Source: Baffinella frigidus
Taxonomy: Eukaryota > Cryptophyceae > Cryptomonadales > Baffinellaceae
Direction: 5' to 3'
Assembly (NCBI GenBank): GCA_026770585.1
Contig: MU646712.1
Location: 204,656 to 225,067, forward strand
Length of the DNA: 20,412 nt
Shown here piece by piece: positions 716 to 20,006 of this stretch (position 1 is its first letter; each line of letters opens with the position of its first letter). Under the pieces are notes generated by a model. That model was given only the letters and a program-made list of their open reading frames with translations, made no database searches and was not told where the DNA came from. Both the position numbers and the translations under genes were made by a program.

Positions 716-742
716 GTTTTGGGTCAGCTCGAACGCCGACAA

Positions 743-899: not shown

Positions 900-921
900 G
901 CGGGAGGAGGTGAGGGATTTC

Positions 922-1840: not shown

Positions 1841-1852
1841 CGAGAAACTTGC

Positions 1853-1914
1853 CCTGCAATGGTGGAGAGCAGCGCCCAGGAGCAGGGCACGTCGATCCAA
1901 TGCTCCCTCACCTC
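1853..1914 (-). CDS. Gene A exon 2
   Basis: Minus-strand exon of 62 nt. Acceptor CCCTCAACAG precedes 1914. The peptide runs EVREHWIDVPCSWALLSTIA and the exon enters in phase 0, as exon 1 requires. The donor reads GCAGG|GCAAGT, a GC donor with otherwise good consensus. It leaves two bases, which the single leading base of exon 3 completes to a glycine codon. Exons lying between 1853 and 414 cannot be ruled out, but none is needed for frame. Confidence 0.6.
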
Positions 1915-1918
1915 CTGT

Positions 1919-2060
1919 TGAGGGTTTCGGGTTTCGGGTTTGGGGTGTATGGTTTAGGGTTCAGGGTTTGGGGTTTGGGGTTTAGGGTTTGGGGTTTGGG
2001 GTTTAGGGTTTAGGGTTTAGGGTTTAGGGTTTGGGGTTTAGGGTTTAGGGTTTAGGGTTG
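1919..2060. repeat. TTTAGGG/TTTGGGG array (gene A intron 1)
   Basis: Nearly uninterrupted gggttta and gggtttg heptamers up to gggttgagg. On gene A's sense strand this is the C-rich tract just upstream of the exon 2 acceptor. Confidence 0.92.
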
Positions 2061-2116
2061 AGGTTGCATTGGAGAGAGAGACCTTCATGAATACGGTTCA
2101 GAAGACCTACACGGTA

Positions 2117-2289
2117 CCACAAACCCTCACGGACGGACCAAATCCTTTGATTTCGACCTGTTCCCGAAAAGATAATTGTTTACCAAGATTGGGACTTAAG
2201 TTGACACTGAGACCCCAGACCTGGGGTCTGTGCAAGGGGAATCTGAGGTCTGAAAATCGACGATTTGGTCTTTCTGTGAGGGTTGGTGG
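2117..2289. mobile_element. Foldback element in gene A intron 1
   Basis: The left arm CCACAAACCCTCACGGACGG and the following ACCAAATC...GATTTC pair with the right arm ending GTGAGGGTTGGTGG. The centre contains the perfect palindrome AGACCCCAGACCTGGGGTCT at about 2211-2230. About 173 bp, no coding potential. Confidence 0.7.
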
Positions 2290-2757
2290 TAGCCATGTAG
2301 GCGCCCCCAGGGGCTATGTCTCGGAGATCCCACGACCGTTCACTCGACTGGACATATGATGGTGAGTCTCACGACTGGTACCTCAACCAAACACGGTGTG
2401 TACCGGGGGAAACGCTGTTTGGCGAACTGTAACTCTGATCAAGAAACAGGTGGGGGATTCTCGTTTGATGTGTCAGACGAGTCCGTGAGTGCCTGTTCTG
2501 ACTTGCTGAAGTGTGTAACGATAGGTGGGCACATCTGAAGCTTTTGCGACGCCACGTGAGGGGGGCAAGGCCCTTTGCACCAACACACGAGCCCCCGCGA
2601 GGATTTTACCCGTCCGCTTTAGCATCGCACACCCGTTAAAGATCCCACCGCGATGGGGTGCGATCGCGGTGTTCTCGTGTCAACGGAAGGAACCCAGGAT
2701 CCCGCCTCGATGTGCTCGAAAATGATGCGGGGCGCGGCAGCAAGCGATGCAGCATAC
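2290..2757. other. Unique part of gene A intron 1
   Basis: About 470 bases without telomere-like repeats. It includes the small palindrome tagccatgtaggcgcccccaggggcta-like near 2290-2320 and cgatggggtgcgatcg near 2651-2666. Short ORFs in both directions look like chance. The first bases after exon 1 (GTATGC on the minus strand) are a good donor. Confidence 0.4.
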
Positions 2758-2895
2758 CTTCTCGATGCCGGCCTCGAACGAAACCGGCGCGGGCTTGCCT
2801 TTCGCCTTCGAAGGGGTTGCACTAGCGCCCGGCTTGGGCGCAAAAGGGTTCGCGGGGGAGCGCGAGCCGCTGCGCGCTCGCGTCGTGGGAGGCAT
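2758..2895 (-). CDS. Gene A exon 1 with start codon (unknown protein)
   Basis: 138 nt, 46 codons. The ATG is in a favourable ACCATGC context. The peptide begins MPPTTRARSGSRSPANPFAP: basic and rich in proline, serine and alanine, as in a disordered N-terminal tail or possibly a targeting extension. It ends in EAGIEK before a strong donor AAG|GTATGC. The open frame continues past the donor to position 2680, but its composition changes there. Exons 1 to 4 chain without a frame break, giving about 98 residues so far. Function not recognised. Confidence 0.65.
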
Positions 2896-3112: not shown

Positions 3113-3175
3113 ATGCCATCAGGGAGCGAAGACGGTGGCGATTCTGATGATGAGATGCCGGAACTCGTCCAGTCG
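3113..3175 (+). CDS. Gene B exon 1 with start codon
   Basis: 21 codons starting MPSGSEDGGDSDDEMPELVQ, strongly acidic. The ATG has A at -3. The donor is TCG|GTACGC; reading on would hit TAG at 3200, so splicing is required. Leaves in phase 0. No upstream ATG in this frame gives a better start. Confidence 0.7.
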
Positions 3176-6100
3176 GTACGCCAGCAGCACCCCTGCCGTT
3201 AGCGCGCCTCACGGGGCTGTCGAGCCACCGTCAGGGCTGCTGCAGCCGTGTCCCGCCCCTGTTGGCCAAGTTGCCGCGTGCGCTCCCCATCCTGTACCCG
3301 CGCAGTAACCGCCAGCCCCCCCCCGTTCAGGAGGAGAGCGGCGACGAAGATATCTCCTGTGACAAGGTAGTCTTCCCGCCTCGTGTCAAGCGCGCTGCTG
3401 TGCCGCCTGCCAGCCCCCCCTCTCCCCTCCTCCCGCCAGCAGGGTCTGTCTATCAACTAATACATCACGTGACTGCGTTGCGTGCAGCCCGCCGCGCCGC
3501 GAATGGCAGCAGCCCCAGCTGCAGCTGCAGCCGCGGGGAGCAGGACCAATGGTGCCGCCGGGGGAAGCTCTCTGGCAGGGTTCAAGCCCGGGTTCCTCGA
3601 CGGGAACAACAACCGCAGCGGCGCCCCTCGCCAGCACGACTCGCACCAGTGGGCGGGGCGGCTGCCTCGCGACGCCTGCCCCGTCCTGCCCGCCAACGTG
3701 TTCAAGCGCGTGATTGCCCCCCCCGGGCGCGGCGCACACGTCCGGCTCGAGAAGGCGCTCGAGGGCATCGTCGCCCTCATGGGCCGGACCAACTACGATA
3801 AGGACTACCCCTGCAACTCCACGGCGCTGCGCGCGCTCGTCGTGTGCATGCACGCCGGACCCTCGTGGGGATATCCCGGCGACGAGAACCAGCAGGCGCC
3901 CCTCGCGTGCGACGTCGGGTCCATCATGGAGTTCCTCACCGAGCGCATCGCACGGCAGCCCAAGGCGAAGGCGATCAACATTCAGACCATCATCACGCGG
4001 TGCGCCCCGCCCCCCAGCCCCATGCCCCAGCCTGCCCCCCCCCCGAAATTTCAACCCCCCCCTCTGCTTGTTGCGGCAACGCGAGGATGCCTCGGGGCTG
4101 CCTCTCAGCCTGATTCATCCGCCAGATCAGCAAGACCATCAGGGCTCTCCCCCCTCTAACCCTGACGGGGCCATCCCCTTCCCCCCGGACACCACGGTGG
4201 GGATCGTCGGCGCGTGTCTCCACTACGTGCGCCACAAAGAGCGGCGCTCTTTCTTTGTTTTTTTTTCTGGGGCGAGGCACCCCTCTAAGCGAAAGGTTTC
4301 TGCCCTGTGAGAAAAGGGTGCTGGCAGGGTGAGCCCGCAGCGCGGTCCCCAACGGCTGAGAGGGCGCGGCTGGTCGCGGCTGCTGCGCGTGTCACCGCGC
4401 GAGTCACCCCACAAAGAGCGCGCGCGCGCGCCCGTCGCCCCACAAAGAGCCCCGCCTCACCGCGCGAAACCCAGCGTGCACCTAGGGGGAGGCGGTTTCT
4501 TATGACCCCGCCGACCCTCTGGGACCACGGTAGGGTCCTAGGGATAGGCCCACGGGAGTTACAGGGATACCTCGCTCCTCCGAATCGGAGCGACGGTCTC
4601 CTTGTCGTGGTCGGTCTGAGTGTTGGTGTGATGGATAAAGCGCAGGTCGCGGCTGGTGCGCGCCATCAAGGAGATGATGTTCCTGCACCTCCGCTGCTAC
4701 TCGGAGTCGACCCACCAGGCGTGGCTCGCCACCTGGCGTTCTATCGGCGGCAAGGTCGTCCACCCACCCACTCAGCAGCCACCGGGGGCTTCACGGATAC
4801 ACTCCATCTAAACCATTTGTACCAGAATCTTATCCATTGCCCTGGAACCTAACCGAAATTTCGCCTTGAATTCAAGGCGAAAAAGAACTCGGCCGCTGCT
4901 AAGTGGACACACACAAAGTCGCGCAGGTGACGTTTGCACCCCCGCAAAGGCGGGAAGGTCTCTCGCCAGCTCTCTCTCTCGATCGATGTGGGCTCTCGCC
5001 GGTTTGGGGCGCCCGGGCTCTTCGGAGCGGAAACGTTGACGGATTTGTACCACACACCCAGCTTGTCGGCTGAAGAATAGTCGGGCAGCCCGATCGAGAC
5101 TGAGCTGGCAGGTTGGTTGCACGCATCTTGCTTTGTGCCGTGCGGGAGCAGTTTCTGGGTTGGTCCAATTTCTGGTTCGTTCCATTTTCTGGTTTGGTCC
5201 AGTTTCTGGTTTGGAGCAGTTTCTGGTTTGGGCCCGTGCATGCGTACCGTAAGCTCCACACAGCGTTCCCGGGGGGGAGATGCGTGTTCTTGAATGCGAC
5301 AACACGAGCACCACACAGTACCACAACAGTCTTGTGGACATACAAGGTGGCGTCGCCCCTGGCCACAAAGTAGCGCACATCGTCCCGGCAGATGGCTGGG
5401 GTATTACGCCAGGATTTTATGCTACGCACCAAACCCTGAACCACACATCCAGAACCATAAATAATAAAAATAAATAGGGCAGTCACCCAAACTCAACCCC
5501 CGGAGCAGGTCCCGGAGCAGAACCGCCCCCCCCTAGGACCCTACTGTAGGCCTATGTCTAGGGCCCTATGGTGGTTCTAGGGGGGGGGGGGGGGGTTCTT
5601 ATGAGCGAGGTACCCCTGTATGGGACCTTATTTTGGAGTATGAAGGACCTGCACATGAACACAGCCTCGGCGGGGGTACAGATAGTATGCTTCTTCTGCT
5701 TCTGTTTTACTCTCGATACAGGTCCTAAAATGGGTTCTTGAGCCTTGAGTTGAGTGATACAAAAGTCTATGAGCCTTATAGTGTGCCCTTAACATAGCAC
5801 AGAACATTCGGTGCATGGCGGCCGTGTTGGCATGAAGGAACGCCTCTCCCTTATCCCTTAAGTGGCCAGTAGGCTCATACGCCCTACGGTAGGGTCCTAG
5901 GACCTGACCAGGACGAGTTAGGGCGAATATCCACCCTATGGGCACTCAAGGGATAACTAGCACATCAGGTGAGCAGGTCCCGGAGCAGAAGGAAGGGCCC
6001 CAAACCCTACACCCCACACCCGATGGGGTTATTTTATTGGATGTGGATGAAGCGCCTAACCCTAAACCCCGATGCCCAAACCCCACACCCTAACCACACG

Positions 6101-9100
6101 GTAGGCTACACGGGTTTCGTCGAAACCCCAGATTCTGGGGGGTAACGTGACCAAAGTTGCACCAGAAAAGCCCTCAAGTTAATTGCCTCAAGGCAAGTTG
6201 ACTTTTGATGAAAGGTCCGTAGTCCGCCGTGTGGCCCTAAATTTTCAAGCTTGAATCCCGAAGCAGGTCCTGGAGAAGAAGTAGGACCTTGAGATGGGGA
6301 CGTTTCACTGGAGTATGCTGTCTTAGCCTAACCCCCAAACCCCAGACCCCACCCCCTACACCCCACACCTCTGCGCTGCGTCGCGGGGCCCTAAACCCTT
6401 AAATCCCCATCCTTCAGCTCTAAATTTTGAAGGTTGGATCCCGGAGCAGGTCCCGGAGCAGAAGCAGGACCTTCAGATGGGGACCTCCCCGTGGATGTGG
6501 ATGAAGCGTCACCAGGTCCAATTTCTCTCGCTCTCTCTCTCTCGCTCTCGCTCTCGCTCTCGCTCTCTCTCTCTCTTCCTCCCTCTCTGGCTCCCGCTCT
6601 CCCGCCGCCCCTGGATGTGGATGAAACGTCACCAGGTCCAATCTATCTCTCGCTCGCTCGCTCGCTCGCTCGCTCTCTCTCGCTGCCCCCCTGGATATGG
6701 ATGAAGCGTCACCAGGTCCCATTTCAATCTTAAACGCTAAACTATCTGAATATTAAATCTTAAACCCTAAACCCTTTGAAGCTTAAACCCTAAACCCTCT
6801 GAATCTTAAACTCTAAACCCTCCGAATGTCAAATTCCAACCCTCTGACTCTTAAACTCTCAACCCTAAACCCTCTGTAGCTTAAAATCTAAACCCTCTGA
6901 ACCTCAAACCCTCAACCCTCTGAATCTTAAATCCTAAACCCTCTGAATCTTAAACTCTAGACCCTCCGAATCTGAAACCCCAACCCCTCGAATCTCAAAC
7001 CCCAAACCCTCTGAATCTCAAACCCTAAACCCTCTGCATCTCGAAGCCCCAACGCGCTGGAAAGTAGATGATGCACTTGGAGCGCGACTCGCGACTGGAG
7101 CAGAGCGAGCACCGCGCCTTTAGGGGTTAGGGGATCTCTGTGAAAACGCAACGGTCCGGACGTGCTTGGGGGCAAATTTCGCACGGTTGGTGGTATTTTT
7201 CACCGAACTGAGCTCAACTTCTATGTTCCACCCACGTGGAGCAATTGACACCCCCAACTTGCTGGAAAGCTCATCATGCACGCGGAGCACGACTACAACA
7301 CCGCTCACTAAAACCCCGGGACCCCATTTGCTGCGGAAATTGCCCTTATATCCGAGGCTTTCCGGCATCCTAACTCAGCGGATTTGCTATAATCGTAGTA
7401 AGATTGTACAATTCATTGCGTGGTACAAATTCAAGTTTTTTGTTGAGATGCGCGTAGGGGTCTCAAGGACGTAGTTTAAACCCTCGGCGCGCTGGGCAGT
7501 TCATCATGCACGCGGAGCGCGACTACAACATCACCGCGCTCCTCATCGAGGATTTCTGCTGCCTCGGTGAAACCCCAAACCCTAAACCCCAAACCCTTAC
7601 CCCAAACCCTAAACCCTAAACCCCAACCCTGCTTTTAGAGGACTTTTGCTGCCTCGGTGCTGTCTGAACCGTTCTGCTTCTCTTCTGTTTTACACTCAGA
7701 TTTTTGGAAATGTATCAACTTCAACCACCTACTACCGCTGGCGCCGGTGCCCTGGACCCCTAAACCCTAAACGATTCCAAACTGCTTCTCAACGCTAAAA
7801 CCTACACCGTAACCCCCAACCCCAATTCATGATCCGTCATCCCTCATCCCCAAACCCTAAACCCTACACCATCCCTAAACCATAAAGCATAGTAGTGCGT
7901 GAACCCCTAAACCCTAAACCCTAAACCCTAAACCCTCAACCCCAAACCCAGAGGAGTGGGCCATCGCGAACCAGAAGCTGGGCGATGAGTCGTACCTCCA
8001 CCAGGTCTTAACCCTACACCCTAAACCCTAAACCCTGAACCCTAAACCCTAAACCCTGAGCTCTACACCCTACACCCTGAACCCTAAACCCTAAACCCTA
8101 AACCCTAACCAGCGGTGGCTGCGCCTCGACACCGTGCGTCTGTGGTGCACGGAGTCCTGGCCGTCGTACGGCGACATCAAACGGTCTGTTTCCCCGCCCC
8201 CGTACCTGTCGTGTCAAGGGTTTGGGGGTTTCGTGCAGGAGCGCTGCTGTCAATCATAACGTCCTCCGTATTCTTTCTGGGACCCATACCCTTGAGCGAT
8301 ACAAACCCTAAACCCTAAACCCTAAACGGTCTCGCCTGGCCGCGGTATGGGTGGTCCCGCCTGGCAGCGCCTCGACACAGTGCGCCTGTGTCTTGCAAAA
8401 AGCTAACGCCAGCGAGGTACTTGAAGCCTACGGATTGGCTACGGTAGGAGCCCCCCTCCTACGACTTTTAAAGACCTTTTTGTTTTTAACGTCGTAGGAG
8501 GAGGGGGGGTTCCTACCGTAGGCTAAGGGGTCCGCTGGCGTTAGCTTGTGGCATTATGTGGTGCACGGTGTCCTGGCCCTCGTGCCGACATCCAACGGTC
8601 TGGTAGATTCCCCGATCCCGAATCGACCATAAATTATAAATTCTGCGCTAGCCCGGAATCTCAATATGTCCGAACATAAACCCTAAACCCTAATAATTAT
8701 CGCATGCATACGGCGATAATCCGCCGGTGTGCGCTCTTCCTGTCCCCGTATCTCTCGTGTGTAGGGGTTCGGGGTTTCGTATCTCTCGTGTGTAGGGGTT
8801 CGGGGTTTCGTGCAAGAGCGCTGGCTGCGCCGTGTTTCCCCTGTTTGGCAAGCCTCAACCCTGTTTCCGGCAGGTGCCCTCAGCTGGCTCGCATCGAGGG
8901 CATGTCTATCTCGAGCCTAGATCCTGAACCCGCGACGCTAAATATGTGGCGACCATCTCGAGCCTCGACCCTGAACCCTCAACGCGAAATATGTGGCGAC
9001 CTGCCCAGGGCGAGTTGGGGCGATTAACCGCCCGTCCGATTAATCGCCCGTCCGCCACTTAAGGGATAAACCCTAATGGTGTGGTGATCGGCAGGTACCC

Positions 9101-15100: not shown

Positions 15101-18100
15101 GTAGGGTGTTCAGGGGTACCTCGCTCATAAGAAACTGCACCCCCCCGAGGACCACAGCAGGGCCCTATGCATAGGCCTAATGTAGGGTTCTAGGGGGAGG
15201 CAGTTTCTTATGAGCGAGGTACCCCCGTAGGGTGTAGGGTGTAGGGTGTCGGGCTCTGTGAAGGTGCGCGCCTATCACGCCTTGTTGTTCAGGGTTCAGG
15301 GGTCAGGGTTCAGGGGGTCAGGTATAGGGCTCGCAGTCGAGGCCTGTCGAAACCCAACCCCCATTCCATCCACGCAAGAGCGCTCCAGGGAAACCGACGC
15401 CTTACCCACGCCAGATCTGGTGTCGTTGACTTAAGCATTCAGGGGATTTCCCCTGAAAGTTGTCAAAAGTGGATGTGTGGAGCCCTCTGGCGTGGAACCC
15501 TAAGAGAGGCACCTCCCGGGAAACCCCACACCCGAAACCCTAACCCGCATTTCCCTAAACCCCAAACCACAAACCACAAACCCTAAACCCTAAACGGTAC
15601 CCAGGTGCTCGACGTCGACATCCATCGCCAGGCCTATGCGCTCCTCATCCACCTCTGCAGCCAGTACCCCCCCTGAACCCTAAACCCTGAACCCTGAACC
15701 ATAGACCATAAACCCTAACCCCAAAGCCCTAAGCTCCTGCGCCTTACGCGGCGCTCCGTATCCACCTCTGCAGCCAGTATGCCCCCACCCCAACCCAAAA
15801 CCCTAAACCCTAAACCCTACACCCTGAACCTAGGCCCTAAAGCCCCCGCCCCAACCCTAACCCCCAAACCCTGAGCCATAAGTTTCCCATGCACCTCTGC
15901 AGCCAGAGTCCCCCCGCCCCAAGCCTAGCCGCTGTTTCTAAAGTTGATGTATTTGTGGGGGTGTTGACATTGACAAAAGCGCCTGTACCGTGACCCTCGC
16001 CCCCGTGTGTTGCCTACCACACAGCGGGCTACCAAGGGATTTTCGGGCGCGGAGAGCCGGAGGTTCCGTTGCCTTATCCGTAGGAACCCCCCTATGTGCC
16101 TACTGTAGGGTGCTGGGTCTTATCGCTGAGGGGTTATTCAAAACCTCTTGGAAGTCCACAGTGTGGTGGGGAGTTTCACGAGCCGCATAGCCTGTCCTGT
16201 GTTGCCTTGCTATCTTTACGACCCTGCGCCCCCACAACGACCCTAGAGCTAGAGAATAGACGCAGGGCTTTTCGGTGGGGTAACCCTGGCCCGTTCTTGG
16301 AGCCATTGGCTCGTTCTTGGAGCCGTTTGCTAATGAAAATTGACTTTTGAATACCGTTTCCCCTTGAAAATTGACTTTTGAATACCTCCCTCAAGAGCCC
16401 TCTGTGGAAACGCTGCGGCCGCCGCAAGTCGAGACCAGTTTGGAGGGATGTTGTCACCTAAACCCTACACCCTACACCCTCAACCCTCAACCCTCAACCC
16501 CACACCCCAACCCCCGCAGGTCAGACGAGTTTGCAGGGCTGGTAGTGAAGAAGCTGGCGACGCCTTCGACGTTTGCCCGCCGCGACGAGAATAACGTGAG
16601 TCTCCTCCACGGAGGGCTCTTGGAGGGGGGTATTCAAAAGTCAATTTTACAAGGGAAAATGGTATTCAAAAGTCAATTTTCAGGATAAAACGGCTCCAAG
16701 AACGACCAATGGCTCCAAGAACGGACCTGGATTGCCCCCATCAAGCGCCCTGGGTGGATCTTCTTCCCCCCTTCTTTGTTAACCTTGTGAGAAGTGGCCA
16801 ACTTACCAACTCCGATCGCTGTCTCTTAGGGTTAGGGGTTAGGGGTCAGGGGGGGTCCTCCCCCTCTTCGCCGCGCCTGCAAATCCCTCACCCTACACCC
16901 TAAACCCTGAACATCAAACCCTGGGGAAAAGACTTGAAAGATGGAACCCTAAACCTAAACCGAAACCGAAACCGAAACCGAAAAACGGAAGCCTAAACCT
17001 AAACTAAACCTGAACCTGAACCTGAACCTGAACCTGAACCTGAACCTAAACCGCAGGAGCGCATCCAGAAGCTGACAGACATCATCCGGGACGCGGCCAT
17101 CCGCAACGCGACCGATCCCGGTGATAAACCCTAAGCCCTACACCCTAAACCCCAAATCTAAACCCCAAACTCTAAACCCTGAACCCTGAACCCTGAACCC
17201 TAAACGCGACCGAGCCCGGTACCGCAATCGCACCTGCACCCCCCACAAACTCTCAACCCCAAACCCTAACCCCTGGACTCCTCCATCCCCCAAACCCCGA
17301 CCCCTGAACCATCCCCCAAACCCTAAACCCCGAACTCCAACCCCTCACCTCCCTCCACAACCTCTGCTATTCTCCAAACCCAGAACCCCAACCCCCACAC
17401 CCCAAACCCCAAACCCTACACCCCACACCCCAAACCCCTAACCCGTAAACCCTACGCAAGGCCCGGACGGAGGGCACCCGACGGCGTGCTCGTTCTGCAA
17501 GGAGAACCTCACGGCCGTTGGTCAGTTTGCGCCTAGGTCTGCGCCAAACCCCAAACCCCAAACCCTAAACCCTGATACCCTGATACCCTGATACCCTGAT
17601 ACCCTGATACCCTGATACCCTGATACCCTGCCCTGCTCGACCGCGTGACGCATCGACTACGCTAAACCCTAAACCCCAAACCCTAAACCCTAAATCCTAA
17701 ACCCTGGAGAGTCGCTCGTGAAGTGGCTTTACGTCTGAGACAGAGAATTCACTGTGGAATCACCCCAGGTGGAGGCTTGATTACATGGCGCAGACGTGTA
17801 GCCACTAGATATCTCACTCGTGACGCACTGTGTTGCATACCGTAGCACCCTACGGGATAAGCCGGTGCGCGCCGCCTCCGCCTCACACACGAGCATGCTA
17901 GAGGGGCCTATTTAAAATCGTTTTGTTTTACAAGCGGGTATTTGTGTAGTAATTTTCGTGAGGTTGGTCACGTACCTGGGCGAAATTAGTCCAGACACGA
18001 GGTTGGTTACGTTATCCCGGTACAAATATTTACAACCCCACTTGTAAATAGGATCCTCCAGTATTCTCGAGTGGGCAGACTCTCTCCCAAATGGGTTTCG

Positions 18101-20006
18101 GGGTTTCAGGAACTCTAGGTTCAGGGTTCCGGGTTTCGGGGTGCGAGGCGAACCTCACTGCTGTCCGGTTTGGCTTTCTCCCCCCTATCTTAGGGGTGGT
18201 TTTTGTGATATACTAAAGCTATGTCGAGGCTAAGATAGCAATTTCAAGCCTTAAGATAGCAAGAATCTTTGACCCCCCTCGACTCTCTACCCACGTTGTG
18301 TCACCCTCCACCCTAAACCCTAAACCCCCGTCCGGCCCTGGCCCGCCCCCGCTCCGCCGCAGGGTGTTTCCCTTTAACCGAAACCCGAAACCCTAAGCCC
18401 TAAGCCCTAAACCCTTCTGGCCCTCCACAGGGTGTTCCGCGGTTGCACGACCCGAAACCCGAAACCCGAAACCCGAAACCCTAATCCCTAATCCCGAAAC
18501 CGCAGGGTGTTCCGCGGGTGCAAGACGCGCTCGCAGCACGTGGTGTGTTTCCAGTGTGTCAACACTTCGTCGGAGCCCCTCAAGCGGTACCAACCCCCAA
18601 ACCTCAGTTAAGGATGCGGCTCCAACCCCCATCGTAAAACCCCGATCCGAGACCCTAAAACCCTTCCACAAACGCATCCTCACGACATGTAGCACAAAAG
18701 AACCCCAAACCCCAAACCCTGAACCCTGAACCTGGCTTCTATGCGTGCCAGTGTACTGTTGAGTGTACCGCACCCTGAACCCTGCACCACAGAGCGTAGT
18801 GCGTAGTGCGTGTGCCCGTGCACGGTCGCCAACGGACACCCCAAAGCCCCAACGCTGCACCAGAGCTAAGTAGGCGTGCGAGTGCACAGTTGCCACCGGA
18901 CACGCTAAATCCCGAGGCCGCCACAGGGCCTACTACGCGTGCCCGTGCACGGTCGCCAACGGCGCGCAGCGCACAACCTCCGCCATGCAGACCACCCACG
19001 AGTACTTCGGCCTTTCCCAGGCGCGTGACCCCTACACCCTTAACACTTAACAGTCAACACCGAGACCACTCACGAGTGCTACGGCCTTTCCCAGGCGCGC
19101 GCCCCTCCCTCGTAGAAATGCTTTCTCTGACTTACTCTCCCCTCCCCCCCCCCCCCCCTCCCTCCCTCCCTCTCCCCTGATTTCTTCTTCTCCCCTCCCT
19201 CCCTCCCTCCCTCTCCCCTATTTCCTTCTTTCGTCTCCTCTCCCCTATTGTATTCTTCCTTTTGATTGCTCTCGAACGTAGCAATGCGCTGCCCAAGCAC
19301 CCTACACCTAGCTCTGTCCCATTTGGATTTGGGCTCCTCATTAATTCGCCCCTCCCCCCCATTTCTCATGTGAATTTCCTGGGGGGGGGGGGCAAATTCA
19401 CCTTGGAAATTGGGGGGGGTGGGGCGAATGGATGAGGGGCTCAAATCAAGTGGGACAGAGCTAGTACACCCTAAACCCGGAACCCTAAACCTCCCTCCTA
19501 ACAATGCGTTCTCCCGGGAGCGCGTCCCTCGAGAATAGACCCCTCAACAATCAACCATAAACAATAAACCATAAACAATAAACCATAAACAACAAACAAC
19601 ACACACCAACAGTGAACACTACACAATACACAATACACAATACACAATACACAATACACAATACACAAAACACCATACACGATTAACCCCAAGCAACAAA
19701 CAACAAACCCTAAACCCTAACCGTTGGGGCAGATTGCACTCAAGGAAGAAGGGAGCTTGCATCCTTGCTAAGTGGCAAGCCAAGAAAATCGCCGCGCAGC
19801 GCGCTGAGGGCTTTATTCCCTCAAGGACCCTTAACCACTACACCCTGATTCAAGGCGAACAGGTGTTGGGTCGCTGGTAAGTGGTTGGGGCGTTGCAGCC
19901 ATTTCGTGAAACGACAAACCCTAAACCCTCACCGTTGGGGCAGATTGCGCTCAAGGAAGGGGGGAGCTTCCATCCGCAGCTAGCGGTATCCAACTCGAAT
20001 GCCCAG
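3113..20006 (+). CDS. Gene B, whole multi-exon span (unknown RING-like protein, 3' incomplete)
   Basis: Twenty-six exons totalling about 2.3 kb (about 770 codons) chain from 3113 to 20006. Every junction matches in phase except 16 to 17. Visible layout: an acidic N-terminus (exons 1-2), an Ala/Gly-rich linker followed by a compact domain (exon 3), a long central part from small exons that looks helical (for example MTKVFKELIHK, AYELIEKVKNKIQDQ), and a C-terminal zinc-type pattern over exons 23-25: C-x2-C-x17-C-x5-H-x2-C-x2-C-x14-C-x-C. That resembles a RING finger, with a longer C-x5-H gap and a final C-x-C. An E3 ubiquitin ligase role is possible but not shown. The stop codon lies beyond the window. 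I recognise no family. Confidence 0.65.
3331..3366 (+). CDS. Gene B exon 2
   Basis: Acceptor CCCCGTTCAG, donor GACAAG|GTAGTC. 12 codons EESGDEDISCDK, phase 0 in and out. It extends the acidic N-terminus of exon 1. Confidence 0.65.
3488..3999 (+). CDS. Gene B exon 3 (largest exon)
   Basis: 512 nt with strong GC3 bias. Acceptor GCGTTGCGTGCAG, donor ATCACGCG|GTGCGC; phase 0 in, 2 out. It begins with an Ala/Gly-rich segment (AAPAAAAAAGSRTNGAAGGS) and continues into a denser domain with GIVALMGRTNYDKDYPCNST and ALRALVVCMHAGPSWGYPGD. The end is IMEFLTERIARQPKAKAINI followed by QTIIT. This is the best-supported coding stretch in the window. Family not recognised. Confidence 0.85.
4109..4213 (+). 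CDS. Gene B exon 4
   Basis: Acceptor GGCTGCCTCTCAG. The two bases left by exon 3 plus C give Arg, then LIHPPDQQDHQGSPPSNPDG and AIPFPPDTTVGIVG, a proline-rich linker. The frame stays open to a TGA at 4308 (through LHYVRHKE), but only the donor GGCGC|GTGTCT at 4214 gives the phase 2 exit that exon 5 needs. The sequence after that donor is repeated near 4386 and 4436, as at other donors here. The 3' end is therefore less certain than the 5' end. Confidence 0.6.
4214..4645. other. Gene B intron 4: donor-edge copies, exon 5 edge copy, MITE fragment
   Basis: The string GCGCGTGTCTCC...CACAAAGAGCG after the exon 4 donor recurs at about 4386-4425 and partly at 4432-4456. A decayed copy of the exon 5 start (ggtcgcggctgctgcgcgtg) lies at about 4371-4390. 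Positions 4486-4575 match the right part of the GGGGTACCTCGC element at 15113. No other gene seen. Confidence 0.6.
4646..4754 (+). CDS. Gene B exon 5
   Basis: Acceptor ATAAAGCGCAG, donor GGCAAG|GTCGTC; phase 2 in, 0 out. The peptide SRLVRAIKEMMFLHLRCYSE continues STHQAWLATWRSIGGK and looks helical and basic/hydrophobic. Confidence 0.75.
4768..4906. mobile_element. MITE family CCACTTAGCAGC, copy 1
   Basis: 139 bp with about 12-bp ends CCACTCAGCAGC and GCTGCTAAGTGG. Internal gcttcacggatacactccat, ccatctaaaccatttgtacc and the hairpin cgccttgaattcaaggcg. Close copies at 9272..9409 and 14241..14379. It starts 13 bases after the exon 5 end. Confidence 0.85.
4985..5110. mobile_element. ~130-bp GACTGAG-ended element, minus orientation
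   Basis: Shares ggcgcccgggctctt, gttgacggatttgtacc, gaatagtcgggcagcccga and gactgagct with the copies near 1266, 9770 and 11925. Ends carry short inverted repeats of the form AGCTCnGTCT. Non-coding. Confidence 0.6.
5151..5236. repeat. 17-bp minisatellite
   Basis: About five units of tttctggtttggtccag with small changes, next to the antisense exon-like fragment. It makes repetitive NQKL/WSNFW ORFs that I do not consider genes. Confidence 0.8.
5248..5395 (-). CDS. Antisense exon-like fragment inside gene B intron 5
   Basis: On the minus strand, acceptor GTAATACCCCAG before 5395 and donor TTACG|GTACGC after 5248 bound 148 nt. The open frame includes ICRDDVRYFVARGDATLYVH and KTVVVLCGARVVAFKNTHLP, ending GNAVWSL. 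The composition is protein-like and the codons are less GC-rich at third positions than in gene B exons. It may be a captured fragment of another gene, a nested gene, or a transposon piece. No partner exons found; family not recognised. Confidence 0.4.
5521..5616. mobile_element. GGGGTACCTCGC element, partial copy
   Basis: The right end ggttcttatgagcgaggtacccc and the body ctaggaccctactgtaggcc match the complete element at 15113..15225. The left terminal repeat has been lost. Contains a 19-base G run. Confidence 0.65.
5851..5957. mobile_element. Short inverted-repeat element TTATCCCTTAAGTGGCC
   Basis: Left end ttatcccttaagtggcc pairs with right end gggcactcaagggataac. The body has cctacggtagggtcctagg and ggacgagttagggcga. 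A related right half (cgagttggggcgatt...ccacttaagggataa) is at about 9010-9070. Confidence 0.6.
6094..6234. mobile_element. MITE related to the CCACACAGCGG family
   Basis: Ends CCACACGGTAGGCTAC and GTAGTCCGCCGTGTGG are inverted repeats close to those at 1592 and 16017, but the body differs and contains the hairpin gcctcaaggc. About 141 bp, inserted in a CCCTAA context. Confidence 0.65.
6450..6515 (+). CDS. Gene B exon 6
   Basis: Acceptor CGGAGCAG, donor CACCAG|GTCCAA; 22 codons VPEQKQDLQMGTSPWMWMKR plus HQ, phase 0 in and out as both neighbours need. The acceptor tract is purine-rich, so confidence is lower. Another frame reads DPGAGPGAEAGPSDGDLPVD and cannot be fully excluded. Upstream and downstream edge copies flank it. 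Confidence 0.5.
6516..6720. repeat. CTCTCG-rich tracts with two copies of the exon 6 donor edge
   Basis: Two pyrimidine tracts (ctctcgctct, then ctcgctcgctcg) are each followed by a copy of the exon 6 end: ggatgtggatgaaacgtcac at about 6613 and ggatatggatgaagcgtcac at about 6693, both with caccag|gtcc intact. This gives three tandem donor edges; the first is taken as the working one. Confidence 0.8.
6722..7052. repeat. Compound ~20-bp repeat of CCCTAAA type
   Basis: Units like aaaccctaaaccctctgaatctt recur about 14 times; each combines one or two CCCTAAA heptamers with ctctgaat(c)tt. Upstream part of gene B intron 6. Confidence 0.85.
7053..7499. repeat. Gene B intron 6, distal part: two decayed copies of exon 7
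   Basis: Copies of the exon 7 start occur at about 7053-7092 (gctggaaagtagatgatgca, badly decayed) and 7258-7300 (gctggaaagctcatcatgca, then cgcggagcacgactacaaca, better kept). Each is followed by unique sequence. The intact exon follows at 7500. An inverted pair, tggtattttt/tggtacaaat, near 7190 and 7420 hints at an old element. Confidence 0.7.
7500..7566 (+). CDS. Gene B exon 7
   Basis: Acceptor GCGCGCTGGGCAG, donor TGCCTCG|GTGAAAC. Peptide FIMHAERDYNITALLIEDFC plus CL; phase 0 in, 1 out. A donor-edge copy (gaggacttttgctgcctcggtg) lies at about 7638-7660. Confidence 0.75.
7571..7951. repeat. CCCTAAA/CCCCAAA blocks, gene B intron 7
   Basis: Heptamer arrays at 7571-7626, 7852-7870 and 7901-7949, broken by the exon 7 donor-edge copy and about 150 bases of unique sequence. 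The last array runs straight into the exon 8 acceptor (ccccaaacccag). Confidence 0.85.
7952..8004 (+). CDS. Gene B exon 8
   Basis: Acceptor CCCCAAACCCAG, donor CACCAG|GTCTTA. Split Glu codon, then EWAIANQKLGDESYLHQ; phase 1 in, 0 out. Its acceptor is made directly of telomere-type repeat. Confidence 0.8.
8005..8112. repeat. CCCTAAA-filled intron 8
   Basis: The whole 108-base intron is CCCTAAA, CCCTGAA and CCCTACA heptamers plus the donor gtctta and acceptor ctaaccag. The clearest example of an intron made almost only of telomere-type repeat. Confidence 0.92.
8113..8183 (+). CDS. Gene B exon 9
   Basis: Acceptor CCCTAACCAG, donor ATCAAACG|GTCTGT. Peptide RWLRLDTVRLWCTESWPSYG plus DIK; phase 0 in, 2 out. 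Tryptophan-rich. A downstream copy of this exon at about 8372-8606 is split by a foldback element. Confidence 0.8.
8372..8606 (+). pseudogene. Decayed copy of exon 9 split by a foldback element
   Basis: Left part ggcagcgcctcgacacagtg (about 8373-8392) and right part tggtgcacggtgtcctggcc (8560 onwards), followed by gccgacatccaacggtctg, match exon 9 and its donor. The foldback element lies between them at the point matching CTGTG|TGGTG. The copy has indels, so it is not expected to be used. Confidence 0.8.
8401..8548. mobile_element. Foldback element AGCTAACGCCAGCG
   Basis: Long inverted arms: AGCTAACGCCAGCG...CCTACGG...GGTAGGAGCCCCCCTCCTAC on the left, mirrored by gtaggaggagggggggttcc...ccgctggcgttagct on the right, around an AT-rich loop. 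No ORF. Inserted into the exon 9 copy. Confidence 0.85.
8755..8935. repeat. Duplicated intron 9 segment and exon 10 acceptor-edge copy
   Basis: The string tctcgtgtgtaggggttcgg and ggtttcgt occurs twice in tandem (8752-8820) and matches the intron 9 stretch at 8207-8240, including gagcgctg. A copy of the exon 10 start (ggtgccctcagctggctcgc, then atcgagggcatgtc) follows at about 8873-8906. Confidence 0.75.
9095..9176 (+). CDS. Gene B exon 10
   Basis: Acceptor GATCGGCAG, donor GATCAG|GTCTGC. Split Arg codon, then YPELARIDGMSVAYELIEKV and KNKIQDQ; phase 2 in, 0 out. Strongly helical, charged C-terminal half. Confidence 0.8.
9272..9409. mobile_element. MITE family CCACTTAGCAGC, copy 2
   Basis: Ends CCACTTAGCAGC and GCTGCTAGGTGG; shares gcttcacggatacagtccat and ccatctaaaccatttgt with copies at 4768 and 14241. 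The inner hairpin has changed to ttccccggatattcgggg. Confidence 0.85.
9531..9696. repeat. CCCCAAA / CACCAAA array before exon 11
   Basis: Continuous heptamers (ccctaaa, ccccaaa, accacaa, aacatca, aacacca) that change type in blocks but keep the 7-bp register, ending in the acceptor ccccaaaccag. Confidence 0.88.
9697..9756 (+). CDS. Gene B exon 11
   Basis: Acceptor CCCCAAACCAG, donor GGCCAG|GTAACC. 20 codons EVWYRWVRSFADSNNSMSGQ; phase 0 in and out. A donor-edge copy (ttcgcagactcgaacacctc, then catgtctttccacgtgacctc) lies at about 9988-10030. Confidence 0.8.
9854..9973. mobile_element. Foldback MITE, shared-core family, copy 2
   Basis: Full palindromic element: ACACTTATAATTTATAAACT on the left pairs with agttgataagttacaagtgt on the right. 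The core attactacacg...ctttaatatcactag...gtgtagtaaat matches the copy at 743 and the one at 10559. Confidence 0.8.
10559..10699. mobile_element. Foldback MITE, shared-core family, copy 3
   Basis: Arms TCATATGAAAACCGTTTTAG...AAAACCTT and aaggttttaaattcaaaccg ttttcgcatga pair. The core tgaaaatgactacacgaatg and ctttaatatt matches copies at 743 and 9854. Inserted in an exon 12 copy. Confidence 0.8.
10760..10885. mobile_element. MITE family CCACGCCAGAGGGC, copy 1, at a splice acceptor copy
   Basis: 126 bp with ends CCACGCCAGAGGGCT and AGCCCTCTGGCGTGG, and the internal palindrome ACGCCAGATCTGGCGT. Flanked by CA on both sides. The right CA is followed by G|GTGATGACG, so the insertion lies exactly in the CAG acceptor of an exon 12 copy. 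Confidence 0.85.
10997..11070 (+). CDS. Gene B exon 12
   Basis: Acceptor CCTTCACTAG, donor CAGTCCGG|GTAAACCC. Peptide VMTKVFKELIHKGGHIVDQR plus LKQS; phase 0 in, 2 out. A run of seven G (aagggggggcac) adds one Gly codon compared with its decayed copies. Confidence 0.8.
11071..11324. repeat. CCCTAAA / CCCCACA-filled intron 12
   Basis: Blocks of ccctaaa, aacacta, caaacac, then a homogeneous ccccaca block (11211-11280), then cccgaaa up to the acceptor gaaacag. Every block keeps a 7-bp period. Confidence 0.9.
11325..11382 (+). CDS. Gene B exon 13
   Basis: Acceptor CCCGAAACAG, donor CTGGCG|GTCCGC. Split Gly codon, then WECFKTFFAELNNGRSPLA; phase 2 in, 0 out. Donor-edge copies at about 11534-11576 and 11663-11680. 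Confidence 0.8.
11393..11680. repeat. GA-rich tract and exon 13 donor-edge copies
   Basis: A purine tract of gagaga, gagggag and gcgcgaga units (11393-11530) is followed by a long copy of exon 13 (gacgtttttcgcggagctgg, then ctggcg|gtaacc) and by a shorter one (gcagtccactggcggtccgc) after CCCTCAA repeats. The antisense ORF full of SLSLSP is an artefact of the tract. Confidence 0.8.
11841..11892 (+). CDS. Gene B exon 14
   Basis: Acceptor CCCTACTGCAG. Peptide GADAEQNRRKIDSVLRS, donor TCGG|GTCTTG; phase 0 in, 1 out. The frame could continue to PPNQT, but only the phase 1 exit joins exon 15 in frame. Confidence 0.7.
11925..12013. mobile_element. Fragment of the ~130-bp GACTGAG-ended element
   Basis: gtctcagtctattggggccc, gcgcccgggctcttttt and gttgacgaatttgtaccg match, in minus orientation, the copies at 1266, 1753, 4985 and 9770. 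Confidence 0.6.
12041..12146 (+). CDS. Gene B exon 15
   Basis: Acceptor CCTAAACGCAG. Split Gly codon, then DCGMKLVGEALVGRKVSWFH and PLKFKRLYGKVLWH; donor GGCACAG|GTGCCT; phase 1 in, 2 out. Later copies near 12592 (ctcaagttcaaacgcctcta) and 12781 (gtgcacaggtgcctg) repeat the donor edge, which supports this donor. Confidence 0.75.
12147..12362. other. Proximal part of gene B intron 15
   Basis: About 215 bases of mostly unique sequence with only short heptamer traces (ccaaccccgaaacc). ORFs run through it from exon 15 but lose protein-like composition. No gene seen. Confidence 0.4.
12363..12473. mobile_element. Foldback element GCTATCTTGAGGGTGG
   Basis: aaccgcctttgatgctatct tgagggtggatttt pairs with aaaacccaccccacgatagc caaaacacggtt. 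The inner part tagcatcgacatagctttaa matches, in reverse, ttactaaagctatgtcgagg-like sequence at about 18212-18235. Confidence 0.7.
12549..12593. repeat. TTC microsatellite
   Basis: Imperfect (ttc)n with cgtc and ttttt interruptions, directly before a donor-edge copy of exon 15. Confidence 0.9.
12641..12734. repeat. 20-bp minisatellite
   Basis: About 4.7 head-to-tail units of agacaggcccgcctcgggat with one to three changes per unit. Confidence 0.92.
12786..12912. repeat. Inverted-polarity (G-rich) telomere-type block in intron 15
   Basis: ggttcgggtttagggg and ttggggtttggggtttaggg lie on the plus strand, opposite to the rest of gene B. It sits between two donor-edge copies of exon 15 (near 12781 and 12909). 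Confidence 0.8.
12964..13160. repeat. CCCTAAA block before exon 16
   Basis: ccctaaa, ccctcaa and ccccaaa heptamers up to the acceptor ataccaccag. Confidence 0.88.
13167..13254 (+). CDS. Gene B exon 16
   Basis: Acceptor CATACCACCAG, donor TACAAG|GTCTCT. Split Arg codon, then DDGSPESKVRIQHDEPLDNE and DAAPVMSYK; phase 2 in, 0 out with this donor. It resembles exon 17 (SKVRI...APVMSYK against SRVRL...VPALSFK). The join to exon 17 is out of phase, so either the donor differs or a small exon is missed. Confidence 0.7.
13267..13332. repeat. CTCTCC microsatellite
   Basis: (ctctcc)n grading into (ct)n, 12 bases downstream of the exon 16 donor. It yields the spurious SPSPSP/LPLPLP ORFs. Confidence 0.92.
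13351..13420 (+). pseudogene. Decayed copy of exon 17
   Basis: ccctagggtggaatgttccc corresponds to the exon 17 start (tagggtggagtattccc), and gaggacgtctcgcccgccat to its end. Indels break the exon 17 frame, although another frame is open (FPEPRHSEDVSPAILNRF). If spliced at GCGTG|GTGTGA it would restore phase into exon 17, so exon use cannot be ruled out. Confidence 0.55.
13492..13617. mobile_element. MITE family CCACGCCAGAGGGC, copy 2, at the exon 17 acceptor
   Basis: 126 bp, ends CCACACCAGAGGGCT and AGCCCTGTGGCGTGG, flanked by TA on both sides. The right TA is followed by G|GGTGGAG, so the TAG acceptor of exon 17 is built from the target duplication plus one host base. The same-family copy at 10760 shows the same placement. 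Confidence 0.85.
13621..13684 (+). CDS. Gene B exon 17
   Basis: Acceptor GGCGTGGTAG, donor TTCAAG|GTCCTC. Reads VEYSRVRLIDTDETVPALSF then K in a frame needing two bases from the previous exon; phase 2 in, 0 out. Exon 16 as called leaves none, a conflict I could not resolve. The exit phase fits exon 18. Confidence 0.65.
13732..13981. repeat. Intron 17: short heptamer blocks and exon 18 acceptor-edge copy
   Basis: ccctcaa and ccctgaa heptamers (13735-13835), then a short copy of the exon 18 start, ctgcagtggtcggaga (13835-13850), then unique sequence to the real acceptor. Confidence 0.7.
13982..14058 (+). CDS. Gene B exon 18
   Basis: Acceptor CACCTCCTACAG, donor CCTCTCGA|GTACGC. Peptide WSDIAFDMLLHEDYNGEGLC then SDYPL; phase 0 in, 2 out. 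Confidence 0.8.
14205..14578. repeat. Intron 18: decayed copies of exon 19 with inserted elements
   Basis: First copy: gcaggttcgacgccgaggcg then aatctcgagctgat (14211-14240), cut by the MITE at 14241, resuming as gggcggaacc. Second copy: gcaggtacgacggcgaggcg then aatctcgatgtaatgatcgg (14522-14571), followed by the MITE at 14579. Between them are palindromic pieces tctcctagggtttaggagat (14406-14508). Confidence 0.85.
14241..14379. mobile_element. MITE family CCACTTAGCAGC, copy 3
   Basis: 139 bp with ends CCACTTAGTAGC and GCTGCTAAGTGG, and the inner hairpin caccttgaattcaaggcg. Inserted in a decayed exon 19 copy. Very similar to the copy at 4768. Confidence 0.88.
14579..14710. mobile_element. 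MITE family CCACGCCAGAGGGC, copy 3 (reversed)
   Basis: Same family as 10760 and 13492 but in opposite orientation (cgaaacatccacttttgaca near the left end). It has a small internal duplication of gcgtggataag. Left flank TA, right flank CA. Directly follows a decayed exon 19 copy. Confidence 0.85.
14755..14821 (+). CDS. Gene B exon 19
   Basis: Acceptor CGGGGCAG, donor GTCGAG|GTGCGC. Split Glu codon, then FDGEANLDMMIGTVELCKTA and VE; phase 2 in, 0 out. Confidence 0.8.
15113..15225. mobile_element. GGGGTACCTCGC element, complete copy
   Basis: 113 bp with nearly perfect ends GGGGTACCTCGCTCATAAGA and the mirror tcttatgagcgaggtacccc. Contains ccctatgcataggcc. Partial copies at 5521..5616 and about 4486..4575. 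Confidence 0.88.
15370..15495. mobile_element. MITE family CCACGCCAGAGGGC, copy 4
   Basis: 126 bp, left end CCACGCAAGAGCGCT (diverged), right end AGCCCTCTGGCGTGG, inner cacgccagatctggtgtcgt. Flanks AT and AA give no clear target duplication. Same length as copies 1 and 2. Confidence 0.85.
15605..15663 (+). CDS. Gene B exon 20
   Basis: Acceptor CGGTACCCAG, donor TGCAGCCA|GTACCC. Peptide VLDVDIHRQAYALLIHLCS; phase 0 in, 2 out. Reading through gives YPP then TGA. Two donor-edge copies follow, at 15745-15790 and 15880-15910. Confidence 0.8.
15664..15915. repeat. CCCTAAA blocks with two exon 20 donor-edge copies
   Basis: cacctctgcagccagta at the real donor (15650) recurs at 15763 (donor still GTATGC) and 15892 (donor lost, ccagagt). 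Steps are 113 and 129 bases, filled with ccctaaa, ccctgaa and ccccaaa heptamers. Confidence 0.85.
16017..16166. mobile_element. MITE family CCACACAGCGG, copy 2
   Basis: 150 bp, ends CCACACAGCGGGCTACCAAG and mirror cttggaagtccacagtgtgg. Body ttatccgtaggaacccccct and tactgtagggtgctgggtct as in 1592..1752. Confidence 0.82.
16278..16410. repeat. Inverted repeat arm A around exon 21
   Basis: cgttcttggagccattggct...attgacttttgaatacc (twice)...caagagccctctgtgg. Its reverse complement is 16604..16738. Contains two tandem aaaattgacttttgaatacc units. Confidence 0.88.
16520..16595 (+). CDS. Gene B exon 21
   Basis: Acceptor CAACCCCCGCAG, donor AATAAC|GTGAGT (best donor consensus in the window). Split Gln codon, then SDEFAGLVVKKLATPSTFAR and RDENN; phase 2 in, 0 out. 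Sits between long inverted repeat arms. An acceptor-edge relic (gagaccagtttggagggatg) is near 16431-16450. Confidence 0.82.
16604..16738. repeat. Inverted repeat arm B around exon 21
   Basis: ctccacggagggctcttgga...ggtattcaaaagtcaatttt (twice)...ggctccaagaacgaccaatg. Reverse complement of 16278..16410 with small indels. Begins eight bases after the exon 21 end. Confidence 0.88.
16888..17056. repeat. Intron 21: CCCTAAA, then AAACCG and CTGAAC hexamers
   Basis: Ends in gaaacc (16960-16980) and cctgaa (17008-17046) hexamer blocks, one of the few places where the 7-bp register is left. Runs into acceptor ctaaaccgcag. Confidence 0.88.
17057..17120 (+). CDS. Gene B exon 22
   Basis: Acceptor CCTAAACCGCAG, donor GATCCCG|GTGATA. 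Peptide ERIQKLTDIIRDAAIRNATD plus P; phase 0 in, 1 out. Donor-edge copy gcgaccgagcccggtacc at about 17205-17222. Confidence 0.8.
17121..17460. repeat. CCCTAAA/CCCCAAA-filled intron 22
   Basis: Nearly all heptamer variants, apart from the exon 22 donor-edge copy (17205-17222) and a looser stretch at 17223-17390. Ends in acceptor taaaccctacgcaag. Confidence 0.88.
17461..17536 (+). CDS. Gene B exon 23 (first Cys pair of RING-like domain)
   Basis: Acceptor CCCTACGCAAG. Split Gly codon, then PDGGHPTACSFCKENLTAVG and QFAP. The donor CCTAG|GTCTGC gives phase 2 out, as exon 24 needs; an alternative donor GTTG|GTCAGT at 17521 would be out of phase. CSFC is the first cysteine pair of the zinc-type pattern. 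Confidence 0.72.
17570..17700. repeat. CCCTGATA 8-bp array and CCCTAAA block
   Basis: Seven tandem ccctgata units (17570-17625), then ccctaaa heptamers (17661-17703), in gene B intron 23. Confidence 0.92.
17701..18305. other. Unique middle part of intron 23 with two elements
   Basis: Contains an inverted-repeat element at about 17907-18060 (cctatttaaaatcgttttgt and mirror acttgtaaatagg; gtgtagtaattttcgtg as in the 743 family) and a relative of the 12363 foldback at about 18185-18262. A reversed G-rich patch lies near 18098-18145. I see no exon with fitting phase. Confidence 0.55.
18306..18505. repeat. Intron 23, distal part: CCCGAAA array with two exon 24 acceptor-edge copies
   Basis: ccgcagggtgtttccc (18357-18372) and ccacagggtgttccgcggtt (18425-18444) precede the real ccgcagggtgttccgcgggt (18501). 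Spacers are cccgaaa and ccctaag heptamers. Steps about 68 and 76 bases. Confidence 0.85.
18506..18586 (+). CDS. Gene B exon 24 (central Cys/His of RING-like domain)
   Basis: Acceptor CCGAAACCGCAG, donor CTCAAGCG|GTACCA. Peptide VFRGCKTRSQHVVCFQCVNT then SSEPLK; phase 2 in, 2 out. Carries C-x5-H-x2-C-x2-C, the core of the zinc-type pattern. Confidence 0.82.
18735..18926. repeat. Ladder of three exon 25 acceptor-edge copies
   Basis: The exon 25 start phrase gtgcccgtgcacggtcgcca (real at 18939) has decayed copies at 18745, 18812 and 18876: steps of 67, 64 and 63 bases. Each is followed by a short ccctgaacc- or ccccaa-like spacer. Confidence 0.88.
18927..19020 (+). CDS. Gene B exon 25 (last Cys pair of RING-like domain)
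   Basis: Acceptor GGCCGCCACAG. Split Arg codon, then AYYACPCTVANGAQRTTSAM and QTTHEYFGLSQ. The donor is read as CCCAG|GCGCGT, a GC donor giving phase 0 for exon 26; the GT four bases on would be out of phase. A donor-edge copy (cacgagtgctacggcctttc, then ccaggcgcgc) at 19068-19100 keeps the GC. Confidence 0.7.
19131..19215. repeat. CCCT/TCCC microsatellite
   Basis: Pyrimidine tract of ccct units and a 15-base C run, broken by gatttcttcttctc, in intron 25. Confidence 0.88.
19308..19464. mobile_element. Foldback element CTAGCTCTGTCCC with TACAC flanks
   Basis: 157 bp. Left arm CTAGCTCTGTCCCATTTGGA pairs with right arm ending tgggacagagctag. Inner ccccccatttc/gaaattgggggg also pair. TACAC occurs on both sides (19303-19307 and 19465-19469) as a likely 5-bp target duplication. 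Confidence 0.82.
19545..19725. repeat. AACCATAA / ACAATAC heptamer arrays
   Basis: caataaaccataaa and then acaatac units (19620-19670): strongly drifted telomere-type arrays that still keep a 7-bp period, returning to ccctaaa at 19708. Confidence 0.85.
19733..19883 (+). pseudogene. Decayed copy of exon 26 with MITE fragment
   Basis: attgcactcaaggaagaagg gagcttgcatcc copies the exon 26 start after an identical ccgttggggcag acceptor, then runs to TAA. The right end of a CCACTTAGCAGC-family element (gattcaaggcgaacaggtgt, then tcgctggtaagtgg) follows at 19847-19883. Confidence 0.75.
19944..20006 (+). CDS. Gene B exon 26 (last exon seen)
   Basis: Acceptor ACCGTTGGGGCAG, donor GCCCAG|GTGTCG. Peptide IALKEGGSFHPQLAVSNSNA plus Q; phase 0 in and out. 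No in-frame stop is reached before the donor, so the gene continues past the window. Confidence 0.72.

Follow-up and report, generated by a model that had tools for sequence, protein, structure and literature searches.

Among the systems described so far, the neointrons of Daphnia pulex appear to be the closest precedent for the introns reported here. In the available parts of that study (PMC4202315), direct repeats internal to the introns are read as the product of repeated staggered double-strand breaks, which passively lengthen young introns; such repeats are found in 61.1% of new versus 16.2% of established introns, and repeats of an exon end, 33 in number and 4-12 bp long, occur at the other end of new introns. 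Introns are also known to be gained through tandem genomic duplication (for a review, in its accessible sections, PMC3443670), in which the duplication supplies extra splice sites and an intron is created within an exon, both splice sites deriving from one segment. Interstitial telomeric insertion places telomere-like tracts within genes, the target being directly duplicated at some loci, and duplication is a minority outcome in the accessible portions of these reports (e.g. a plain duplication at 3 of 66 horse loci; PMC2246262, PMC7215372). Finally, introners, which are dispersed families of sequence, bring about mass change in intron content (PMC9860276, as far as its available text goes).

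The locus to be compared with these systems is a stretch of 20,412 nucleotides of nuclear DNA (the window, in the following) from the cryptophyte Baffinella frigidus, a cold-water single-celled alga, whose genome is given for strain CCMP2293, in the accessible part of PMC9756366, as 534.5 Mb with 41.1% repeats, i.e. 6.1 times that of Guillardia and unusually large for a cryptophyte. Many introns of a gene in this window, gene B, and of genes elsewhere hold worn copies of the edge of an adjacent exon, which suggests that many introns have been lengthened by repeated small duplications of the boundary, the outermost boundary being kept in use. Like Daphnia neointrons, these introns contain direct repeats and repeat the terminal bases of the adjacent exon; unlike them, as far as PMC4202315 is accessible, the repeats are of 14-63 nt, edge-anchored and serial, and lie in introns of conserved genes. 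Tandem genomic duplication shares with the Baffinella copies the supply of extra splice sites, but in Baffinella existing introns are enlarged, and an intron start resembling the start of the next exon, the sign of such duplication, was not found in gene B introns. The copies are also, unlike interstitial telomeric insertions, not tied to telomere-like DNA and, unlike introners, they belong to their own junction: no introner-type sequence shared by many introns was seen for gene B copies among the non-adjacent pairs, and a term search found cryptophytes, Baffinella, Guillardia, telomeres, tandem and satellite all unmentioned in the available text of PMC9860276. The statement in the earlier note that no system of this regularity has been described is, therefore, too strong in the light of the internal direct repeats of Daphnia. 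Relative to the Daphnia and tandem duplication precedents, no description was found of exon copies that are anchored to the edge and stand in series within the introns of conserved genes: among the matches listed in the full-text literature, taken from titles and the starts of abstracts and including few subscription journals, neither exon-edge copies filling introns nor Baffinella intron evolution was found.

Gene B (3113-20006, + strand, as are all its features below) is modelled as 24 exons (E1, E2, E3, E4, E4b, E5-E14 and E16-E24) in a single open frame, all introns being bounded by GT and AG except for a GC donor at E23. The peptides of 23 of the 24 exons, E2 (3331-3366) being the exception, are found in the public protein T484DRAFT_1818510 (hypothetical protein, partial, Baffinella frigidus), with aligned columns that are, gaps aside, all identical; E4b was itself located through this sequence. 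Two protein database searches, each scoring about 8,000 candidates with the most shared words, returned no homologue or outgroup beyond T484DRAFT_1818510, and no Pfam family reaches its cut-off. A first exon model counted 13628-13684 as an exon and missed E4b. That candidate was rejected, as it is absent from T484DRAFT_1818510 and reads as an E14 donor-edge copy; the corrected model was used for pair scores and anchoring, and likewise for exon interiors, splice sites, the comparison with the public model, intron-side homology and the telomere-like fraction between copy and edge.

Each exon of gene B was aligned to each intron, with 506 non-adjacent pairs (maximum score 25) and 552 reverse-strand pairs (maximum 24) serving as controls. 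Twenty of the 46 pairs of an exon and an adjacent intron score above every control, namely 9/23 with the upstream intron (E4, E4b, E5, E8, E10, E17, E22, E23 and E24) and 11/23 with the downstream intron (E4b, E5, E7, E9, E11, E13, E14, E18, E20, E21 and E23), and 15/46 are still above a stricter pooled control (2,500 pairs, maximum 31). The copies above threshold number 30, seven of them weak (scores 26-29); they start within 10 nt of the intron-facing exon edge in 27 cases and within 2 nt in 23, the latter as compared with a mean of 2.2 and a maximum of 10 upon random placement within the same exons (20,000 trials), and the far exon edge is never approached to within 2 nt. The earlier note, which had described decayed copies of exon edges in these introns, with acceptor edges upstream and donor edges downstream, is confirmed in these respects, with a numbering of exons that differs from its listing of 21 edges. 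A masked self-comparison gave, with the first exon model, 17 nearby same-strand repeats of at least 29 bits, 15 of which cross a junction, and no distant or inverted exon-intron repeat. The copies are local, of the same strand and anchored to the edge, and they lie intronward of the junction that the gene model uses. They were said to occupy nearly every gene B intron, an extent that is reduced here to 15 of 23; introns with at least one copy have a median length of 856 nt versus 204.5 nt for those without, a longer intron also offering more room.

No copies of exon interiors were found in 48 windows, which were supplied by the only four exons long enough. A preference of duplication for junctions over plain intronic sequence is not claimed. 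A local copy exists for 16/46 edge windows versus 24/231 non-dispersed intron windows (chosen away from edge copies, with some of the excluded 'edge copy' intervals entered by hand), and conservation makes the real edge easier to recognise, whereas intron DNA turns over. Direct repeats inside the introns of gene B and of the CCT genes described below exceed chance when adjacent and control pairs are compared.

Following the gene from its 5′ side, E4 (4646-4754) is preceded by a weak acceptor-edge copy at 4373-4389 (score 29) that has lost its AG. Upstream of E4b (6450-6515) are acceptor-edge copies at 5509-5522 (14 nt, score 28), 5977-5991 (15 nt, score 30) and 6267-6301, the last with a likeness extending to the intron side, along with a match to exon nt 43-59 that lacks edge anchoring (6038-6054, score 34); downstream are donor-edge copies at 6608-6635 (26/28 identical) and 6687-6715. 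E5 (7500-7566) is flanked by acceptor-edge copies at 7068-7089 (score 29) and 7271-7300 (29/30 identical) and by a donor-edge copy at 7638-7656 (score 28). The copy of E7 (8113-8183) at 8362-8597 is nearly whole, exon nt 4-32 and 29-71 being represented by 8362-8390 and 8557-8597, with a palindromic element inserted between the two (about 8391-8556). E8 (9095-9176) has an acceptor-edge copy at 8874-8906, and E9 (9697-9756) a donor-edge copy at 9984-10014 that stops 7 nt before the edge. Two acceptor-edge copies of E10 (10997-11070) lie at 10491-10528 and 10889-10926, and a weaker one, below threshold, at 10177-10200. By eye, 10096-10390 contains further, decayed E10-like acceptor copies (about 10097, 10177, 10270 and 10372), which share one passage from exon-like to telomere-like sequence, as if a single unit had been amplified.

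In the second half of the gene, donor-edge copies follow E11 (11325-11382) at 11533-11575 (40/43 identical), E13 (12041-12146) at 12591-12625, stopping 6 nt before the edge, and E14 (13167-13254) at 13647-13684. E17 (14755-14821) is preceded by acceptor-edge copies at 14211-14240 and 14526-14565 (37/40 identical), while E18 (15605-15663) is followed by donor-edge copies at 15751-15776 and 15888-15905. Weak copies are found on the donor side of E20 (17057-17120; copy at 17203-17218, score 27) and of E21 (17461-17536; copy at 18142-18164, score 26, 18 nt off the edge). E22 (18506-18586) has an acceptor-edge copy at 18431-18454; E23 (18927-19020) has acceptor-edge copies at 18801-18835 and 18871-18899 (score 28, 7 nt off the edge) and a donor-edge copy at 19063-19094 (29/32 identical); and the acceptor-edge copy of E24 (19944-20006), at 19733-19764, is alike also on the intron side (rank 1/54), which is partly telomere-like.

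Splice dinucleotides are largely preserved in the copies, with an AG still present at 14/15 acceptor copies, and a GT or GC at 10/12 donor copies. Their mean splice scores (acceptors, 6.77 versus 5.95 at real sites; donors, 3.73, one copy at -14.1 included, versus 5.56) are near those of the real sites, so that site strength fails to explain which junction is used. A missing downstream donor as the reason why inner acceptors are unused was likewise rejected, with 9/15 acceptor copies having a good donor within 25-130 nt versus 0.657 of random points. Mismatches between copy and exon at codon positions 1, 2 and 3 amount to 18/289, 30/289 and 43/279 (p 0.0035), a third-position excess that fits a copy drifting against a constrained exon and, equally, a coding past. 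Only one of the 30 copies has changed in length relative to the exon, and there are 3 stops in 253 codons. An age ladder, with more distant copies being older, is unsupported: among eight exon edges compared, two are for it (E5, E10), two against (E4b and E23, both upstream) and four are ties (E4b downstream, E11, E17 and E18).

Extension of the analysis to other genes, as the earlier note had suggested, shows that the pattern recurs. The conserved family Cpn60_TCP1 was sampled at three loci on three contigs (CCT1, CCT4 and CCT6), a fourth locus, C1202, being outside the sample. Gene B and CCT1 are well modelled, the joined exon peptides of the latter matching solved CCT1 chains (E 8.1e-180), while CCT4 and CCT6 are partly modelled by eye, the former lacking an exon between d4 and d6, the latter its later exons. 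For CCT1 alone, 5/32 adjacent pairs exceed the maximum of 240 non-adjacent and 272 reverse-strand pairs; its exon c17, out of frame in that analysis, was excluded from the pooled one. When gene B, CCT1, CCT4 and CCT6 are pooled, 28/97 adjacent pairs (15/46, 5/30, 5/11 and 3/10, respectively) exceed the maximum (31) of 2,500 non-adjacent pairs, only 6 of which exceed 25, and no reverse-strand score exceeds 25 in 97 pairs. Eighteen of 20 CCT copies are within 2 nt of the facing edge (null mean 1.1, maximum 7, 20,000 trials). In the window itself, gene A, a tentative antisense neighbour (window 1-2895, - strand; exons 2758-2895, 1853-1914, 374-414 and 129-183; open frame MPPTTRARSG...), contains a tentative exon A2 (1853-1914) with a GC donor (GG/GCAAGT), which is followed by donor-edge matches spread over 1186-1608 on the same strand, at 1557-1608, 1489-1511, 1409-1437, 1259-1275 and 1186-1211 (scores 45, 30, 46, 26 and 36, respectively; best on the other strand, 19). 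Three of the five are clear of 100 shuffles (top five 24, 24, 25, 31 and 31), 1489-1511 and 1259-1275 being inside the shuffle range. Since three chaperonin genes on other contigs and the antisense neighbour show the same pattern, exon-edge copying in Baffinella looks genome-wide.

How the copies were made can be approached from the sequence on the intron side of the copied edge, compared for the 36 of 39 pooled copies whose match to the exon reaches within 8 nt of its edge (E4b 6038, E7 8362 and CCT1 c15 8364, which are farther off, were left out). These copies are 74 to 692 nt from the real edge, with a median exon-side homology of 36.5 nt. If they were pure tandem duplications produced by replication slippage, the whole stretch from copy to edge would be the unit, and its intron part would have since turned over through array growth, deletion or insertion of elements. 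In keeping with this, a clean, near-perfect tandem unit of 79 nt, made of 23 nt of exon and a remainder of intron, is present at CCT4 d7 (65/75 aligned positions identical), the E4b, E18 and CCT1 c9 donors have long intron-side homology, and 11/36 copies have more than 20 nt of it, some telomere-like and hence uncertain. Furthermore, the intron side is best matched by the copy's own junction in 6/36 copies versus 0.67 expected, with a mean score of 8.8 versus 5.3 for other junctions. However, 17/36 copies, although they lie 75-692 nt away from the real edge, share no more than 8 nt with it on the intron side; 6 of the 10 nearest copies with at least 93% exon identity have 12 nt or less; and at CCT4 d3 the exon part is identical at 41/43 positions, yet only 6 intron nt match over a spacing of 220 nt. 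Because the intron side decays faster, part of the shortfall in homology is signal loss; pure slippage is a possible, if doubtful, explanation. The short tandem duplications spanning a junction that the earlier note had envisaged can, thus, be recognised in some copies (CCT4 d7) and not in the 17 with short homology, and a short straddling duplication accompanied by filler would, for many copies, be a better fit than pure tandem duplication. At CCT6 e4, four upstream copies display, by eye, two seam types, 4197 and 4549 sharing one and 4356 and 4801 another, an alternation which indicates that an early pair of copies was itself duplicated.

The growth of introns by junction duplication, with the outer junction kept, is the best reading of the copies. 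We consider it probable that Baffinella nuclear introns have been lengthened by repeated small duplications at exon-intron junctions, many of them with filler, the outermost junction being still used. Each event would leave within the intron an exon-edge copy (14-63 nt in the matches), usually retaining AG or GT; the outermost junction would continue in use and the inner copies would become intron. The copies would, on this reading, originate from duplication of the junction, and many events may also have inserted or captured unrelated filler, so that pure slippage would be less likely than break repair or template switching. The outer junction would be kept by selection on the protein, since splicing at an inner one would carry intron sequence into the message. 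The 17/36 copies with no more than 8 nt of intron-side homology could also mean that the splice junction itself is the target of copying, with one end of the copy often within a few nt of the splice site, and that copying is tied to transcription or splicing, but this we regard as a long shot.

Whether the inner copies are intron at all is where the public annotation matters. Aligned to the window, T484DRAFT_1818510 can be fitted with 29 exons, six of them extra relative to the 24-exon model. Four of its exons start at acceptor-edge copies (10177-10188, at the copy below threshold, 10491-10535, 10889-10900 and 14211-14259), and two use a copy edge in the opposite role: exon 14500-14525 ends where a copy starts, so that the edge of an acceptor copy serves as donor, and exon 19095-19111 begins at the end of a donor copy, whose edge serves as acceptor. 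The end of E23 also differs, being placed at 19024 (before GT) instead of 19020 with its GC donor. These extra annotated exons are the point at which the reading of inner copies as intron is weakest, and the rule that the last acceptor or the first donor keeps phase, put forward in the earlier note, stands in the 24-exon model but is not the sole annotated reading, the public model using four copies. The copies could, accordingly, be functional as tandem, alternative or micro-exons, as the public annotation partly has them, and their splice dinucleotides, nearly constant length and few stops are as such exons would have them. On the other hand, the copies are partial, with 0/39 pooled copies coming within 2 nt of the far exon edge, 27 of the 30 gene B copies above threshold are absent as exons from the public model, and its 12-nt and 17-nt exons may be repairs made by the gene caller. 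A functional role as exons is, on balance, unlikely.

Telomere-like DNA is abundant around the copies. With the first exon model, 27.5% of the intron bases of gene B, as opposed to 0.8% of its exons, are telomere-like in the C-strand form, the other strand accounting for 3.2% of intron bases. Upstream of gene B it is the opposite strand that predominates (27.7%), again the C-strand when read in the direction of gene A; gene B introns 1-3 have no telomere-like arrays. In the 382 Mb Baffinella assembly used for motif counts, exact (CCCTAAA)x4 has 15,790 + 14,831 overlapping matches versus 1 + 1 for a reversed control. Insertion of telomere repeats at staggered breaks might, then, have produced both the telomere-like tracts and the flanking duplications, as is known for some mammalian insertions with target duplication (PMC2246262, PMC7215372, in their available text), and telomere-like or other simple repeats are slightly enriched in the 60 nt beside seams (0.46 versus 0.33, P 0.03). 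In the stretch from copy to real edge, however, telomere-like DNA makes up a fraction of 0.237 for the 28 nearest copies, not above an intron background of 0.14-0.475 depending on the gene, which weakens this reading to the point that it is very unlikely as the cause of the copies. Because the copy-to-edge stretches are no richer than introns at large, the arrays are treated as a feature separate from exon-edge copies.

Gene B introns also host inverted-repeat elements of several families, with limits and families set by eye (13489-13623, 14563-14713 and 15370-15495; 4765-4915, 9275-9415 and 14243-14385; 15113-15225), some of them beside or inside edge copies; they are passengers in the introns. 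A pattern search with 16 nt of an element matched 13 viral contigs, taken for chance, and one with a 27-nt DNA pattern gave no matches.

The copies may, alternatively, be scars left when the introns were born, either because an exon segment with AGGT was tandemly duplicated or because DNA was inserted at a staggered break. By eye, intron 15 of CCT1 starts like exon 16, gtcattcccaac (8608-8619 of that locus) versus GTGATCCCGAAG (8919-8930), a possible scar of insertion with target duplication. In gene B such a signature is absent: in-register repeats at intron ends, which would correspond to the short repeats at opposite ends of Daphnia introns, are not in excess (mean 3.17 versus 3.23 in the control), those of at least 6 nt being found in 1/23 introns versus 5.5% of the control, and the copies lie inside the intron and carry their own edge, all of which makes an origin at intron birth most improbable. 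Chance similarity or low complexity, finally, has next to no likelihood and was rejected for the set as a whole through the non-adjacent and reverse-strand controls: the 30 gene B copies include seven weak ones and one of 2,500 non-adjacent pairs reaches 31, but 20/46 adjacent pairs in gene B and 28/97 in the pooled set are above the top control, and anchoring to the facing edge is far above that of random placement.

The source of intron DNA and the route by which introns lengthen are an old question, for which few readable traces are available. In Baffinella, the exon sequence acts as a tag: selection holds the real edge, and this lets the fossil copies be recognised and counted, making events of intron lengthening readable, and comparable from gene to gene, in an unusually large cryptophyte genome. 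A practical warning for annotation follows, in that edge copies with intact splice sites may be called exons. Were copying aimed at the junction, repair templated or provoked by splicing intermediates, for example, would come into play, and much of the intron length in the Baffinella genome would be a record of such events.
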